A stretch of 64,000 bases of DNA, taken from the NCBI GenBank assembly GCA_022822265.1, contig JAJECA010000008.1:1-64000 (forward strand), written 5' to 3'. Positions 5,459 through 16,704 of the stretch are shown here, in pieces (positions within the stretch are counted from its first letter, which is position 1; each line of letters begins with the position of its first letter). This DNA comes from Acidimicrobiia bacterium. GTDB lineage: Bacteria; Actinomycetota; Acidimicrobiia; Acidimicrobiales; Bin134. The notes beneath the pieces were generated by a model. It searched no databases. It was not told where the DNA came from and saw only the letters and a list, made by a program, of their open reading frames with translations. The position numbers and the translations under genes were made by a program.

Positions 5459-5623
5459 GAGGGAAACCTATATAGATACTAATCTATAATGTGACTCGAT
5501 CGTCTCATATCACTCCGCAGTATTCGGGAAGTGAAGCCTGTTCCCTCTCCGCTTGACGATGTCCAGTTTTGGGAGGTTGAGAGTTGGAGGCTGGTCTGAT
5601 CCGACGTTGGCAAGCGCAATGCG

Positions 5624-9097: not shown

Positions 9098-9242
9098 CAC
9101 ACGTAGTTCCTGCCGAAGCGGCCTTTCTTACAGAGGTTGCCTTTGTTACGTCGTGTTCGTCGGGGGAGGTGCACTTCACAATCTGGTTGTCTTGCACGAG
9201 GAGCTCTAGGTTGCATCTCACGCCCCATAGGGAGCAATTGAT
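9098..9242 (-). pseudogene. Decayed copy of the C-terminal end of the NuoG-like formate dehydrogenase subunit
   Basis: On the minus strand this stretch reads CNLELLVQDNQIVKCTSPDEHDVT and then, after a one-base deletion, the equivalent of NLCKKGRFGRNYV followed by a stop. It matches the end of the gene at 10299-11138 (CNLELHVQDNQIVKCTSPDDHDVTSG... ending RFGWNYV) nearly codon for codon. The first cysteines are altered (CSLWGVRC in place of CSYCGVGC), the frame is broken, and no start is present, so it cannot make a working cluster domain. It is a short duplicated scar about 1.1 kb downstream of the intact copy. Confidence 0.8.
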
Positions 9243-10298: not shown

Positions 10299-11138
10299 CT
10301 ACACGTAGTTCCAGCCGAAGCGGCCTTTTATGCAGAGGTTGCCGCTTGTTACGTCGTGGTCGTCGGGGGAGGTGCATTTGACGATTTGGTTGTCTTGGAC
10401 GTGGAGTTCGAGGTTGCAGCCTACGCCGCAGTAGGAGCACACGGTTTGGGTGACGGTTTGGTCTTCGGGGCGCCAGTCGTCGGTTTGGCGGAGGTCGAAC
10501 TCGGTTTTGAACTGGAGGGCGTTGGTGGGGCACACGGCTACGCAGTTGCCGCAGTAGACGCAGGCCGAGTCGGGCAGGGTCACGTCGAACTCGGTGGAGA
10601 TGCGGGCGCCGAAGCCCCGGCCGGCCACCGAGATGGCGTAGGTGTGCTGGGCGTCGTCGCCGCAGGCCTCCACGCAGCGGTAGCACAGCACGCACTTGTC
10701 GTAGTCGCGGATGTAGAGGTTGTCCTGCACCCGCACCGGCTCGTCCATGGTCTGGCCGCCGGGAACGTAGCGGTCGGGGTCGGCGCCGTAATGCTCGGCC
10801 CACTGGCTCAGCTCGACGGCCTGGGACACGTCGACCCCAGTGGCCAGGAACTCCAGCACCATTTTGCGGCTGTGGCGTACCCGCTCGCTGTCGGTGTGGA
10901 CCACCATGCCCTCTTCGGCGGGGCGGGAGCAGGAGGGGACTAGGGCCCGGCTGCCGTCGAGCTCCACCACGCACACCCGGCACACGTTCACCGGGGTGAG
11001 GGTGGGGCCGTAGCAGATGGTGGGGGTCTCCACGCCGGCGGCGTCGCAGGCATCCAGGATGGTCGCACCATCGGGCACGGCCACCTCTTGGTCGTCGACC
11101 CGGATGGTCACCGCGGTCTCGGTGATGACGCTGCTCAC
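10299..11138 (-). CDS. NuoG-like iron-sulphur subunit of formate dehydrogenase, carrying the first molybdopterin-subunit [4Fe-4S] domain
   Basis: A 279-residue iron-sulphur protein. A [2Fe-2S] domain has Cys42, 53, 56 and 70. Two ferredoxin clusters follow: Cys149/152/155/159 (CVLCYRCVEAC) and Cys193/196/199/203 (CVYCGNCVAVCP). The last 46 residues are the Molybdop_Fe4S4 domain: Cys234/237/241 (CSYCGVGC) and Cys269 in CIKGRFGWNYV, with the conserved Lys after the last Cys. In usual NAD-linked formate dehydrogenases all of this is the N-terminus of a single FdhA. Here the frame stops right after the cluster domain, and the catalytic part is a separate gene two positions upstream in the operon. 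It must therefore dock to the catalytic subunit to complete the electron path. It starts with GTG at 11138, overlapping the NuoEF stop by 4 bases. Confidence 0.88.
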   Translation of the reverse strand: MSSVITETAVTIRVDDQEVAVPDGATILDACDAAGVETPTICYGPTLTPVNVCRVCVVELDGSRALVPSCSRPAEEGMVVHTDSERVRHSRKMVLEFLATGVDVSQAVELSQWAEHYGADPDRYVPGGQTMDEPVRVQDNLYIRDYDKCVLCYRCVEACGDDAQHTYAISVAGRGFGARISTEFDVTLPDSACVYCGNCVAVCPTNALQFKTEFDLRQTDDWRPEDQTVTQTVCSYCGVGCNLELHVQDNQIVKCTSPDDHDVTSGNLCIKGRFGWNYV

Positions 11139-12913
11139 TGGCTATTTCCTATCAGGCCCAGCGAAAGCGCGGAGCGCACCGCAGAAGCGGCGGTGTGGCC
11201 CAAGCCGCAGATGGAGGCGTCCACCATGGCCAGAGCCATGTCGTCGATGAGCTCGGCGCGCTGAGGAGCCAGAGGCTGGCCGGAGCTTTGCAACTCCACC
11301 AGCACTTCGTGTTGGCGCTGGGTGCCCACCCGACAGGGCACGCACTGGCCGCACGACTCGTCGCGAAAGAACTCGGCGATGCGGACGACCACAGCCTCCA
11401 TGTCCACGGTGTCATCGAACACCATCACCACGCCTGACCCCAGTGTGGCCCCGGCCTCGCGGGTGTCCTCCAGGGATAGGGGCATGTCGAGGGCGTCGGG
11501 ACCGACGAACACTCCGGCCGCGCCGCCCAACAGCACAGAGGCCAGCGAGCCGGTCGGCCCTCCCGCCAAATCGAGCAATTCGCCCAGTGTGGTGCCGAAC
11601 GGCACTTCGTAGAGCCCGGGTACCGCCACTCGACCAGACAAACAGAAAAGCCGAGTGCCGGGGGAGCGCTCGGTGCCCACCGAGCGGTAGGCATCGGGCC
11701 CATCGACCAGGACGTCCAACACGTTTATGAGCGTCTCGGGGTTGTTGATGGCGGTGGGTTGGGAAAACAGTCCGTGGGTAGTGGGGAAGGGGGGCTTGTT
11801 GCGGGGCTCGCCCCGGAAGCCCTCAATGGAGTTGAACAGCGCCGTCTCCTCGCCGCAGATGTAGGCACCGGCTCCACGGCGAACCTCGATGTCGAAACGC
11901 TGCCCGCTGCCGGCCACGTCGTCGCCCAACAAACCGGCCACCCGAGCTTGGGCGATGGCGCTTTCCAGTCGGGCGGTGGCCCGGGGGTATTCGCCCCGGA
12001 TGTAGATCCAGCCGTGGGGCGAACCGGTGGCCAATCCTGCGATGGTCATCGACTCGATAACCGCGAACGGGTCGTGCTCGCACACGATGCGATCTTTGAA
12101 GGTGCCGGGTTCTGACTCGTCGCAGTTCGCCACCACGTGCTTGTCCGGGCCGGGCTCGTCGGCCACGGCTCGCCATTTGATCCCGGTGGGAAAGGCCGCA
12201 CCGCCCCGACCCGACAGCCCGGCGTCGGAGATGGCAGCGATTACCGCGTCTGGTCCCATCTCAATGGCTCGGGCCAAAGCCTCATAGCCGCCGTGGTCCA
12301 GATAGGACTCTAAGGAGGTGGGATCAACTTCACCCAACCTGCGCAGCACCCTCAGGCCGGGGTCGCCCGCTTGCGGCAGTGAGAATTCCTCATCGTCATC
12401 GTCGGGCACTCGGTCGGGCCGTCCCACACCTTGGACAAACAGCGCAGGGGCTCGTTCGCACTGGCCGAGACAGGGACTGTCGTGGACCCTGGCCCCTTCC
12501 GCCTCCAGAGACGTTCGAAGGTCGTTGTTGCCCGCCATGGCACAGGCCGGATCGACGCACACGTGAACGACGTCGTCGCGGTGGCCGGGGTCGGTGGTGC
12601 GCAGCAGCTCGTAGAACGTGGCCACGCCGTAGGCCTCAGCGGGGGGTACCCCCAGCCGCTCGGCGGCCCCGTTCAAGCCGCCGGGACTGATCCAGCCGAT
12701 CTCGTGCTGGAGCGAGTGCAGCACCGGCAACAACAGGTGGCGTAGGCCGTGTCGTCTGCTGCGGCCCCCGCGGACTATCCGCTCGGTTTCGACGACGGTG
12801 GCCGCGTCTGCTGGGGGGACGATGGCGTCGATGGCGGCCTGTTCGGCTTCGGTGGGCTGATCGTCCCCAAAGTGCAGGTCAGCCAACGGGTGCCCCCGCA
12901 GTCTCGGGGGCAT
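11135..12913 (-). CDS. NuoE-NuoF fusion, NADH-oxidising (diaphorase) subunit of formate dehydrogenase
   Basis: A 592-residue fusion. The N-terminal NuoE part (about residues 35-165) has the thioredoxin-like [2Fe-2S] ligands CVDPACAMAGN and CLGQCERAP. The NuoF part (about 200-590) has the NADH/FMN loop GRGGAAFPTGIKW, the flavin region GAGAYICGEETAL, and the [4Fe-4S] ligands SCGQCVPCRVGTQ plus a later Cys (SICGLG). It passes electrons between NAD and the iron-sulphur subunits, as FdsB plus FdsG or HoxE/F do. The ATG at 12913 lies 35 bases inside the upstream fdhA gene, and its end overlaps the next gene by 4 bases, so the three genes are translationally coupled. NuoE-NuoF fusions are known in some NAD-dependent formate dehydrogenases and hydrogenases. 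Confidence 0.9.
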   Translation of the reverse strand: MPPRLRGHPLADLHFGDDQPTEAEQAAIDAIVPPADAATVVETERIVRGGRSRRHGLRHLLLPVLHSLQHEIGWISPGGLNGAAERLGVPPAEAYGVATFYELLRTTDPGHRDDVVHVCVDPACAMAGNNDLRTSLEAEGARVHDSPCLGQCERAPALFVQGVGRPDRVPDDDDEEFSLPQAGDPGLRVLRRLGEVDPTSLESYLDHGGYEALARAIEMGPDAVIAAISDAGLSGRGGAAFPTGIKWRAVADEPGPDKHVVANCDESEPGTFKDRIVCEHDPFAVIESMTIAGLATGSPHGWIYIRGEYPRATARLESAIAQARVAGLLGDDVAGSGQRFDIEVRRGAGAYICGEETALFNSIEGFRGEPRNKPPFPTTHGLFSQPTAINNPETLINVLDVLVDGPDAYRSVGTERSPGTRLFCLSGRVAVPGLYEVPFGTTLGELLDLAGGPTGSLASVLLGGAAGVFVGPDALDMPLSLEDTREAGATLGSGVVMVFDDTVDMEAVVVRIAEFFRDESCGQCVPCRVGTQRQHEVLVELQSSGQPLAPQRAELIDDMALAMVDASICGLGHTAASAVRSALSLGLIGNSQ

Positions 12914-14798
12914 CGACCAGCTCTACCCTCACCGCGGCAGCCTTGAACTCGGCTGTACCGGATTTCGGATCCCAGTCGGGGTTGGTGAGCACGTTCACAT
13001 CGATCAGCTCGGGATGGTGAAGCGTGGTGAAGGCCAGCCCTCGGGGCAGGCTTGACACCACCCGGGCGTTCATCTCCACCGATCCTCGGGGGGAGCAAAC
13101 CCGCACCCGGTCGCCGTCGGCGATGCCCAGGCCCGCGGCATCCTGTGAGTTCAAGTCCAGACCGGCGAACCGCAGCGGCGAGTCGTATTGACCGCTCTGC
13201 ACGCCGGTGTTGTAGGAGTCCAAGGCCCTTCCGGTGGTGAGGCGCAGGGGGAACTCCTCGCTCAACTCCTCAGTGGGCCCCTCGTGCTCCAGCACCGAGA
13301 ACGGGGCCGGTTCTCGGCCCTCAAGGTCGTCAGCCCACAACCACCCGTGCAAGAAGGTGCTGCCGGGGTGATCCTCGTCGGGACACGGCCATTGGAGGCC
13401 CCCGGCAGCCTCCAGACGCTCCCAGGCCATGCCTCCGTGCATAGCCGACAAACTGCGCAGCTCATCCCACGCGGCCTCAGGGTCGCGGGGGCCGAGTTCG
13501 TCACCCATGGCCTCGGCCATGTCGCACAAGATGTCGATGTCGTGGCGGGCCTGGCCGGGAGGGGAGACCGCAGGCCGCACTCGCTGCACCCGGCGCTCAC
13601 TGGAGGTGACGGTGCCGTCGCTCTCCGCCCAGGCCACCGAGGCGGGCAGCACCACGTCGGCCATCTCTGCGGTGCGGGTCATCAAAATGTCCTGCACCAC
13701 CAAGATGTCCAAGCTCTTGAGCTGGGCCCGGGCGTGGAGCACATCAGCCTCGGAATCAGCCGGGTTCTCGCCGATCACATAGAGCGCCCGGAGGTCGCCT
13801 CGCTCCATGGCCTCGAACATCAGCGTGAGGTGCCAGCCGGGCACAGGGTTGAGCTCCCGGCCGTAGGCGGCTTCAAACCGGGCCCGGTGATCAGGGTCGT
13901 CCACGCCGGCGAATCCGGGGAACTTGTTGGGGATGGCCCCCATGTCGCCTCCGCCCTGCACGTTGTTCTGGCCTCGCAGAGGCACTAGGCCCGAGCCCCA
14001 CCGCCCCACATGGCCGGTGAGCAGAGCCAGGTTGCACAGCGACAGCACGTTGTCCACCGCGTTGTGGTGCTCGGTGATTCCCAGGGTCCACAGGATCTGG
14101 GCCGTATCGGCAGTGGCGTAGGCGTGGGCCATCTCCACCACCACCTCGGCGGGGATACCGCAGATGGCGGCCACCGCATCAGGGGTGAACGGCTCCACCG
14201 AGGCGGCGTACGCCTCGAATCCCTGGGTGGAGTGGGTAATGAAGTCTTGGTTGGCCAGACCGGCGTGGATGATCTCTCGTCCGATGCCGTTGGCCAGGGC
14301 GATGTCGGTGCCCACGTCGATGCCCACCCACACGTCGGAGAATTGGGCCGACGAGGTGTAGCGAGGATCGACGCAGTACATGCGGGCGCCGTTGTCGATG
14401 CCTTTGAGCACGTGGTGGAAGAAGATTGGGTGGGCCTCGCGGGCGTTGGATCCCCACAGGAGGATCACGTCGGTTTCCTCAACCTCCTGGTAGGAGCATG
14501 TGCCCCCTCCCGCTCCGAACACTGTCGCCAGACCGACGACCGAGGGAGCGTGTCAAGTTCGGTTGCAGGAGTCGATGTTGTTGGAGCCCACCACCGTGCG
14601 GATGAACTTCTGGGCGATGTAGTTCATCTCGTTGGTGGCCTTGGAGCAGCTGAACATCCCGAACGCCTGCGGCCCGTGCTCAGACAGCACCTGGTTGAAA
14701 CCAGTCGCAGCCCGTGCCAGAGCCTCTTCCCACGTCGCTTCCCGCAGGCTCCCGTTGTCCCGCACCATCGGCACGGTCAAACGTTCCCGCCTCGCCAT
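12879..14798 (-). CDS. fdhA: Selenocysteine-containing formate dehydrogenase catalytic subunit (lacks its own Fe4S4 domain)
   Basis: A 639-residue molybdopterin oxidoreductase read through an in-frame TGA at 14553-14555 (residue 82). The context is DSCNRT-U-HAPSVVGLA, aligning with the Sec/Cys active site of formate dehydrogenases (such as the E. coli FdhF pattern ARV-U-HGPSVAGL). The frame is intact on both sides, and a SECIS-like hairpin follows. Upstream are WEEALARAATGFNQVL and FSCSKATNEMNY; downstream are LLWGSNAREAHPIFF, and at the end the dinucleotide-binding domain (GRALDSYNTGVQSGQYD, FTTLHHPE). It oxidises formate to CO2 or the reverse. The N-terminal Fe4S4 domain is absent and is supplied by the gene at 10299-11138. 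ATG at 14798 has GGAAAGGGGG upstream, making it better than the GTG at 14804. A gene caller treating TGA as stop would split it at 14553. Confidence 0.92.
14524..14540 (-). promoter_or_regulatory. Probable SECIS hairpin of fdhA
   Basis: On the minus strand the RNA reads GUCGUC-GGUCU-GGCGAC: a 6-bp stem with one G-U pair and a five-base GGUCU loop, starting 12 bases after the UGA. The E. coli fdhF SECIS also presents GGUCU at its tip at about the same distance. Bacterial SECIS elements lie inside the coding region directly after the UGA, as here, and recruit SelB with Sec-tRNA. The codons here also encode the conserved V-V-G-L-A-T, so the element is constrained twice. Confidence 0.8.
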
Positions 14799-14869
14799 TT
14801 TCACCCCCTTTCCTCAGAGGCACCCTGAGGTAGATCAAGCCTATCTGTCCTCGGCCTTCTCGGCCGCGG

Positions 14870-16567
14870 TCAGCTCAGGCCGACGATCTCGCCGTTCTCG
14901 TCTAGGTCGATACCCATGGCGGCGGGTTGGCGGCCGAGGCCGGGCATGGTGCGCATGTCGCCGCAGATGGGGTAGACGAACCCGGCACCTACCGAGGCCC
15001 GCACTTCTCGCACCGGCAGGGTCCAGCCGGTGGGGGCGCCCTTGAGGGAGGGGTCGGATGAGATCGACAGGTGTGTCTTGGCGATGCACACCGGGAGGTG
15101 GCCGAAACCGGCGGACTCGTAGGTGTCGAGCTGGCGGTTGGCCGTGGCTGAGTACTCCACGTCGTCGGCGCCGTACACGGTGGTGGCTACCGCGGCGATC
15201 TTGTCTTTGAGCGACAGATCATCTTCATAGAGCACCTTGAACGAGCTGGGTTCCTCGCAGGCCTCGGCAACTGCCTCGGCCAGCTCGGCCGCGCCCGCGC
15301 CGCCGTCGGAGAAGTGGGTGGTGATCGCGCAGCGGGCGCCGTACTCATCGGCGATCTCGCCGATGGCGGCTAGATCGGCGTCGTGGTCACCGGGGAAAGC
15401 GTTGATGGCCACCACCGGGGTCACGCCGTGGGCTTTCATGTTTGAAAGCTGCTTGCGGAGGTTGTCACCCCCGGCGTGTACCTCATCGGGATTCTCGGCC
15501 AGCAGCGCCTCGGGCAGGGGACGCCCGGCCACGATGCGGTGGTTGCCGGAGTGGGCCTTGAGCCCCCGCACGGTAGCCACCATCACCGCAGCATCGGGAT
15601 CGATGCCCGAGTAGCGGCACTTGATGTTGAAGAAGCGCTCAGCGCCCATGTCGGCCCCGAACCCGGCCTCGGTTACCAAGAAGTCGCCGGTGCGAATGGC
15701 TATGCGGTCGGCCACGATCGAGGAATTGCCGGTGGCGATGTTGCCGAACGGTCCGGTGTGTACCAAGGCGGGACCGCCCTCCAGGGTCTGCATCAGGTTG
15801 GGCTTGAGGGCGTCCTTCAACAGCACGGCCATAGCCCCGGCGGCCTTCAGGTCCTCGGCGGTCACTGGGTCGCCCGCTTTGGTGTAGCCCACCACGATCC
15901 GGCCCAGCCGGGCCCGTAAGTCCGACAGAGAAGTGGCCAGCGCCAAGGTGGCCATCACCTCCGACGCAGCAGTGATGTCGAAGCCGCTCTCCCGGGGGAC
16001 TCCGTCGAGCCGCCCGCCCAGGCCCACGACGATATTGCGCAACGCCCGGTCGTTGATGTCCACCACCCGGCGCCAGGTGATGTTGTGCAAGTCCAGCCCT
16101 GATTCGTTGCCGTGGTAGATGTGGGCATCCAGCATGGCCGAACACATGTTGTGGGCTGCGGTCACCGCGTGCATGTCGCCGGTGAGGTGGAGGTTGAACA
16201 GCTCCATGGGCACCACCTGGCTGTAGCCGCCGCCGGCCGCGCCGCCCTTGATGCCAAATGTCGGCCCCAGGGAAGGCTGGCGGATAGCGATTGTGGCCCT
16301 TTTGCCGATGTGCCCGAAACCTTGGCCCAGTCCTACCGTGGTGGTTGTTTTGCCCTCGCCCAGCGGCGTGGGGGTGATGGCGGTCACCACCACATAGCGG
16401 GCTCGGGGACGGTCGGCCAGCGCCTCGATGGCGTCCAGGCTGATCTTGGCCGCCCCCGCCCCGTAGGGCTCCAGCATCTCAACCGGGATGCCGGCTTCTT
16501 CAGCGATTTCAGTAAGCGGTCGGAGATTCGCCCCGCGGGCGATCTCGAGGTCAGAGGGAAAAGACAT
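14870..16567 (-). CDS. fhs: Formate-tetrahydrofolate ligase (10-formyl-THF synthetase)
   Basis: A 565-residue FTHFS. It joins formate to THF with ATP, or runs in reverse to release formate and ATP. Signatures include ITPTPLGEGKTTTTVGLGQG (the ATP-binding loop), RQPSLGPTFGIKGGAAGGGY, HAVTAAHNMCSAMLDAHI, and TEAGFGADMGAERFFNIKC. The open frame goes to 16582, but the ATG at 16567 (MSFPSDLEIARG) has GAGGCGGG upstream and fits the family's usual start. It ends 71 bases before fdhA on the same strand, so fhs, fdhA, nuoEF and the NuoG-like gene form one operon: formyl-THF to formate to CO2, or the reverse. Confidence 0.96.
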   Translation of the reverse strand: MSFPSDLEIARGANLRPLTEIAEEAGIPVEMLEPYGAGAAKISLDAIEALADRPRARYVVVTAITPTPLGEGKTTTTVGLGQGFGHIGKRATIAIRQPSLGPTFGIKGGAAGGGYSQVVPMELFNLHLTGDMHAVTAAHNMCSAMLDAHIYHGNESGLDLHNITWRRVVDINDRALRNIVVGLGGRLDGVPRESGFDITAASEVMATLALATSLSDLRARLGRIVVGYTKAGDPVTAEDLKAAGAMAVLLKDALKPNLMQTLEGGPALVHTGPFGNIATGNSSIVADRIAIRTGDFLVTEAGFGADMGAERFFNIKCRYSGIDPDAAVMVATVRGLKAHSGNHRIVAGRPLPEALLAENPDEVHAGGDNLRKQLSNMKAHGVTPVVAINAFPGDHDADLAAIGEIADEYGARCAITTHFSDGGAGAAELAEAVAEACEEPSSFKVLYEDDLSLKDKIAAVATTVYGADDVEYSATANRQLDTYESAGFGHLPVCIAKTHLSISSDPSLKGAPTGWTLPVREVRASVGAGFVYPICGDMRTMPGLGRQPAAMGIDLDENGEIVGLS

Positions 16568-16704
16568 GGACCCGCCTCTCATGCTCGATGCTTGATGTCA
16601 ACCCCGCAAGCGTACACGGACAATCAGCCGGTGATCGGGCGACTGCGGCAGGCGATCCTTAGAATCGGGCGGTGGCAGCAACGGCCCCATGACGGAGGCT
16701 CAAC

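Follow-up and report, generated by a model that had tools for sequence, protein, structure and literature searches.

Does the TGA that interrupts a formate dehydrogenase-like reading frame in this DNA encode selenocysteine (Sec), and does that frame represent a whole catalytic subunit? The window, that is, the whole 64,000-nucleotide stretch analyzed, belongs to a draft genome of an Acidimicrobiia bacterium (3.48 Mb in 64 contigs, rated 94.7% complete). A previous reading of the sequence alone had placed there a catalytic subunit of formate dehydrogenase encoded through an in-frame UGA. The features needed to answer the question are as follows.

12879–14798, minus strand: fdhC (name used here), C-terminal part of a formate dehydrogenase alpha subunit, assigned from the frame, Pfam and TIGR01591 profiles, and AlphaFold and Foldseek analyses.
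14553–14555, minus strand: in-frame TGA, predicted Sec codon of fdhC, assigned from relatives and from alignment with E. coli fdhF.
14524–14540, minus strand: predicted SECIS apical hairpin, GUCGUC-GGUCU-GGCGAC, starting 12 nt past the TGA, assigned by comparison.
11135–12913, minus strand: NuoE-NuoF fusion (NuoEF), diaphorase subunit of 592 amino acids, assigned from profiles and conserved cysteines.
10299–11138, minus strand: fdhN (name used here), 279 amino acids, with [2Fe-2S], 4Fe-4S, and Molybdop_Fe4S4 regions, assigned from Pfam and TIGR01591.
14870–16582, minus strand: formate-tetrahydrofolate ligase (FTHFS), 570 amino acids, the next gene upstream of fdhC.

The fdhC frame passed through the TGA at 14553–14555, continued intact beyond it, and stopped at a TGA at 12879–12881, which agreed with the proposal of a single interrupted frame. 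The product consists of 639 amino acids when counted from the ATG at 14798 and 641 from the GTG at 14804; the ATG is the likelier start because it is preceded by the Shine-Dalgarno-like AAAGGGGG. The in-frame TGA is codon 82 from the ATG, as first numbered, and codon 84 from the GTG. The peptide around it, SNNIDSCNRT-U-HAPSVVGL, contained both flanking segments pointed out in the sequence-only reading (DSCNRT and HAPSVVGL) and corresponded to the place where E. coli formate dehydrogenase H carries Sec; residue 82 aligned with codon 140, the Sec codon, of the E. coli gene fdhF. A catalytic Sec or Cys, a His, and an Arg characterize formate dehydrogenases according to one report (PMC8808070). 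All three were found in FdhC, where C/U84, H85, and R277 (numbered from GTG) were invariant in 40 aligned rows, comprising the window and 39 of 40 candidate rows; L167, with two stops in its stretch, was skipped. We infer that R277 is the catalytic Arg.

Close relatives of FdhC, with an identity of 59% or more, were present in 94 of the 298 genomes of the order, the window's own included. At the site in question, TGA was found in all 90 loci of the order fetched besides the window. The three relatives of the order outside the fetched set were fragments, two of which (G042 and G106) were listed with one TGA and the third of which (G036) begins after the site. Outside the order, 20 loci were fetched from 396 genomes drawn from the phylum: 14 close relatives with TGA, four with Cys (L157–L160), and two more distant, fused loci with TGA (L175 and L176). 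Overall, 104 of 108 close relatives had TGA and four had Cys; L173, in which the TGA is followed by a run of N, was counted as TGA. Second stops occurred in L092, L102, L117, and L167, all at residues 632–638 near the gene end. Named records near the window were mostly from Acidimicrobiia ('Candidatus Poriferisocius', marine group Sva0996, 'Candidatus Microthrix', and Ilumatobacter nonamiensis YM16-303). Ten distant paralogues, L140–L149 (33–37% identity), were dropped from the orthologue counts, having TGC at the site; eight of them had been picked for a listed TGA, which lies elsewhere in these sequences.

When FdhC was compared with the 672-position profile TIGR01591, it matched positions 50–672, and the product of the downstream gene fdhN matched positions 1–48; therefore, the two genes together cover the profile almost exactly once. 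Neither half reached the curated cut-off of 666.25 (FdhC, 609.8 bits; FdhN, 49.3 bits). The assignment of a formate dehydrogenase with a Sec codon was thus upheld, but not that of a whole catalytic subunit, since positions 1–48 sit on a separate gene at 10299–11138. Pfam placed Molybdopterin and Molydop_binding on FdhC, and Fer2_4, 4Fe-4S, and Molybdop_Fe4S4 on FdhN. Along the 957-amino-acid alpha chain of the formate dehydrogenase 9wxb, FdhN aligned with residues 24–302 and FdhC with residues 305–937. The gene for NuoEF lies between the two halves; its listed start overlaps the fdhC end, and NuoEF and fdhN overlap by 4 bp. Cysteines 119, 124, 148, 152, 521, 524, 527, and 569 of NuoEF were identical in all rows aligned there, and the protein is expected to carry FMN, iron-sulfur clusters, and an NAD site. 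The gene cluster therefore includes both components looked for in an NAD-dependent multi-subunit formate dehydrogenase, a NuoE/NuoF diaphorase and a NuoG-like relay.

The order FdhC, NuoEF, FdhN was observed in 96 of 110 loci. The other 14 comprised six cut by a contig end, six without partners, and two fused; in the two fused-type loci (45–50% identity), the N-part is directly upstream of the C-part. All six partnerless loci (L111, L117, L120, L125, L126, and L130) belong to one genus and lacked any match to NuoEF or FdhN in the roughly 6.7 kb that follow FdhC downstream, indicating that the partner arrangement is not universal. The four Cys relatives share the same split gene order, so the split is independent of selenocysteine. 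The genus with partnerless loci is what speaks for an alternative in which the enzyme uses Sec but is not truly split, with FdhN a member of another complex and FdhC obtaining its Fe4S4 domain from elsewhere or functioning without it. Against it, FdhN ends where FdhC begins on TIGR01591, the gene order recurs in the great majority of loci, and C234, C237, C241, C269, and K271 of FdhN, i.e., the Fe4S4 ligands and the Lys, were kept in all 94 sequences aligned there (of 96). Furthermore, the distant paralogues L148 and L149, with Cys at the site, have NuoF, the N-part, and the C-part consecutively in the usual order. We consider an apparent split improbable, although it survives better than the other alternatives considered below, and we retain the reading of FdhC and FdhN as two parts of one chain.

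Structure prediction agreed with this division. The AlphaFold2 model of FdhC, made from a 40-sequence alignment, had a mean pLDDT of 86.8 and a pTM of 0.86, and its best Foldseek matches were E. coli FDH-H (1fdi; TM 0.90 by query length) and Methylorubrum FDH1 (7vw6; 0.91). The model thus suggested that FdhC has the catalytic fold minus the Fe4S4 domain.

Two kinds of sequence remnant were observed near these genes. A degenerate copy of the fdhN 3' end, with 139 aligned bases at 84% identity, lies at 9099–9236 on the minus strand, about 1.1 kb downstream of fdhN, and similar remnants are also present downstream in L182 (10072–10170) and L191 (11283–11328). Such copies may reflect recurrent duplication or insertion where fdhN ends. 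In L056, a second piece, at about 5461–5619, matches only the last 53 residues of FTHFS (94%); it is located about 3 kb from the complete FTHFS gene, in the interval that separates this gene from fdhC. It may be an end duplication similar to that of fdhN.

The hairpin past the TGA was examined in the same set of relatives. The 6-bp stem and GGUCU loop described in the sequence-only reading at 12 bases past the TGA were recovered with that stem, loop, and spacing, and so was their likeness to E. coli fdhF: counted from the T of the TGA, GGTCT is at offset 21 in both genes. Bacterial SECIS elements are described in PMC13188914 by a loop of 3–9 nt with G in its first two positions, a stem of 4–16 bp, a UGA-to-loop spacing of 16–37 nt, and a minimum free energy (MFE) of −7.5 kcal/mol or lower. 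The fdhC element falls within these bounds, with a 5-nt loop (GGUCU), a 6-bp stem, a spacing of 18 nt, and an MFE of −14.7 for 44 nt; the 17-nt hairpin alone gave −6.8. Relative to shuffled sequences, the folding energy of the stretch was ordinary (z = −0.47 for 61 bases and −0.08 for 44 bases), and the 17-base hairpin alone stood out (z = −2.57; 4 of 200 shuffles). An Rfam scan of the window gave no match at gathering scores. Support for the hairpin comes from comparison and not from folding energy.

This comparison covered 106 TGA-bearing sequences (the window, 90 of the order, and 15 outside it, with L173 left out). In every one, all six stem pairs were standard and the loop was GGTCT. The second pair was U-A in 96 and U-G in 10, the third was C-G in 93 and G-C in 13, and the fifth was U-G in 93, C-G in seven, and U-A in six. 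On a tree of 111 proteins, in which the state of the stem pair was read in 104 rows, the C-G/G-C pair changed six times, and the partner followed in six of six independent pairs (sign test, p = 0.031). The tree was a quick LG+G4 tree with long-branch warnings on outgroup rows; it was built without L138 and L139 (truncated), L173, and L140–L147, and it retained the alignment columns surrounding the Sec codon. Among 253 conserved degenerate codon columns in 103 orthologues, zero synonymous variation was found only at V90, G91, and L92, which are the two loop codons (G91 and L92) and the stem codon before them (V90). The V90 codon was identical in all 98 sequences with Val there, L92 was CTG in 103 of 103, and G91 was GGT in 103 of 103, although GGT makes up 18% of the Gly codons of the gene (1059 of 5885). 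These patterns of substitution indicate selection on the SECIS hairpin at the RNA level.

The first reading had noted that the window holds no sel genes, so that the machinery must lie elsewhere in the genome, and it had set a total absence of Sec machinery as grounds for giving up the Sec assignment. No sel gene over cut-off was found on the window's contig (C27), and selA, selB, selD, and tRNA-Sec (selC) were all found on two other contigs, C60 and C11. In the profile search of the genome, SelA on C60 scored 327.5 bits and SelB, whose gene adjoins selA, scored 273.8 bits (cut-off, 242.25). A tRNA-Sec on the same contig scored 67.5 bits (gathering score, 47) and was called as tRNA-Sec with anticodon tca by ARAGORN; because the family model is loose, exceeding its cut-off in five of 14 control genomes, this assignment leans on the gene's own score and on ARAGORN. 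SelD on C11 (356.1 bits) has one in-frame TGA in SHGAG-U-AGK (L019; 1531–1533), and the position of this TGA at the presumed active site makes selD a second predicted selenoprotein gene of the genome.

Of the 298 genomes searched in the order, 179 had SelA; it was found in 90 of the 94 that carry the enzyme versus 89 of the 204 that do not (Fisher p = 2.6e-20, kinship uncorrected). The 89 genomes with SelA but no counted match to the enzyme are likely to have other selenoproteins. In four enzyme-bearing genomes (G125, G170, G242, and G261), neither SelA, searched at E up to 1, nor SelB was found over cut-off. G170 is rated 83% complete. The other three keep a tRNA-Sec over the gathering score (66.0–71.7 bits), a TGA-bearing SelD, and a TGA-bearing formate dehydrogenase with its hairpin. 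G242 and G261 are two species of one genus, rated 96% and 94% complete, and we consider it likelier that the region of the adjacent selA and selB was missed in both by assembly or binning than that it was really lost. The SECIS loop was lost in all four Cys relatives, which have GGGCT or GGACT in its place. SelA was not found in three of the four genomes of these relatives and was present in G640 and in the other 16 genomes of the same search. The four loci (genus g201; genomes of 6.1–9.7 Mb) lie on one side of a tree branch, and this looks like a natural Sec-to-Cys conversion of the split enzyme.

Taken together, the genomic machinery, the conservation of the TGA and its hairpin, the co-occurrence with SelA, and the alignment with fdhF supported Sec decoding. 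On this comparative evidence, the TGA at 14553–14555 is the selenocysteine codon of a molybdenum/tungsten formate dehydrogenase. If instead the UGA were read with an ordinary amino acid, or in a code with UGA as sense, nothing would speak for it save the tolerance of Cys at the site in four relatives. The fdhC and FTHFS genes themselves end in TGA, the Sec machinery and the SECIS hairpin are present, and the loop is lost where Cys replaces Sec; this alternative was rejected as very unlikely. A sequencing or assembly error, which had been named at the outset as a possible refutation and for which the draft state of the genome would speak, or a pseudogene with a genuine stop codon inside it, was rejected as having next to no probability, because the TGA recurs at the same codon in 104 of the 108 close relatives fetched from other genomes and, with the same hairpin, in the record of the named isolate I. 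nonamiensis YM16-303, because the frame is intact past it, and because the synonymous sites of the hairpin are frozen.

From these results, we propose that the locus very probably encodes a bis-molybdopterin Sec formate dehydrogenase whose catalytic chain is made of FdhC and FdhN and which is NAD-linked through NuoE-NuoF. SelB and Sec-tRNA, directed by the downstream hairpin, would insert Sec at the UGA at 14553–14555, a step strongly supported by the sequence. By homology, Sec would then be a ligand of the Mo or W held by two pterins. Sec and the two pterin-binding regions would come from FdhC, and the [4Fe-4S] cluster beside the cofactor, together with the NuoG-like relay, from FdhN, so that the two halves would assemble one active site. 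Formate would be oxidized there, and electrons would pass through the 4Fe-4S cluster of FdhN and its further clusters to NuoEF and NAD+, as homologous enzymes suggest; the overall reaction would be formate + NAD+ → CO2 + NADH, with both the acceptor and the direction predicted in the same way. The neighboring FTHFS gene fits a role in C1 metabolism, and in eight loci of the same genus (L051–L058) an FTHFS gene likewise precedes fdhC on its strand, at a distance of about 0.07 to 4.4 kb. In a marine Acidimicrobiales group, formaldehyde oxidation via mycothiol and formate dehydrogenase has been reported (PMC6003095); the word selenocysteine does not appear in the main text of that paper.

The Sec chemistry and UGA recoding seen here are ordinary and well known. 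For the split, permuted catalytic subunit, and for a Sec formate dehydrogenase in Acidimicrobiia, no description was recognized among the titles and abstract starts of one open-access library. We think it rather probable that this is a conserved architecture of this bacterial phylum, in which one active site is built from two separately translated chains, one bearing Sec and the pterins and the other the adjoining [4Fe-4S] cluster, with the genes in reversed order, NuoE-NuoF between them, and the arrangement persisting when Sec is replaced by Cys. Both the TGA and the split would lead gene callers to break such an enzyme into unrelated-looking pieces, in which case annotations of Acidimicrobiia and their relatives may understate the occurrence of formate oxidation to NADH. 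The locus also provides a large comparative case for selection on a SECIS element, in which the loop and the preceding codon are frozen, stem pairs are swapped in a compensatory manner, and the loop is lost with the change to Cys. In addition, it would represent a natural two-part formate dehydrogenase whose halves are testable apart.

Among known systems, E. coli FdhF (1fdi/1fdo) resembles FdhC in having Sec at the aligned residue, the same UGA-to-loop distance, and GGTCT, but it is a single chain with its own Fe4S4 domain. The part matching the first 55–60 or so residues of FdhF is on another gene here, residue 7 of FdhC aligning with residue 60 of FdhF. The NAD-dependent formate dehydrogenases of the Rhodobacter FdsABG and Methylorubrum extorquens FDH1 type have NuoE/NuoF-like partners, which are fused in FDH1. 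The alpha subunits of these enzymes (6tg9 and 7vw6, the latter with a TM of 0.91) share the NuoG-like N-terminal iron-sulfur and catalytic domains, but each is a single protein of 958–989 amino acids in the solved entries, whereas here the subunit is split, its order is permuted, and the predicted ligand is Sec. The solved sequences closest to FdhC were FdhF of HDCR (7qv7) and F420-type and other formate dehydrogenases (9t1s and 7bkb), in which the part matching FdhC begins at residue 57–64 of one chain and the electron partners, judged from the entry names, are different. Since the match begins only there, these enzymes have an N-terminal part ahead of it within that one chain. Formylmethanofuran dehydrogenase FwdB also appeared among the sequence matches to FdhC. 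In FwdB/FwdD, a related catalytic chain is likewise carried on two polypeptides, but it is split at the other end, at the dinucleotide-binding domain, and the reaction differs from that of formate dehydrogenase.
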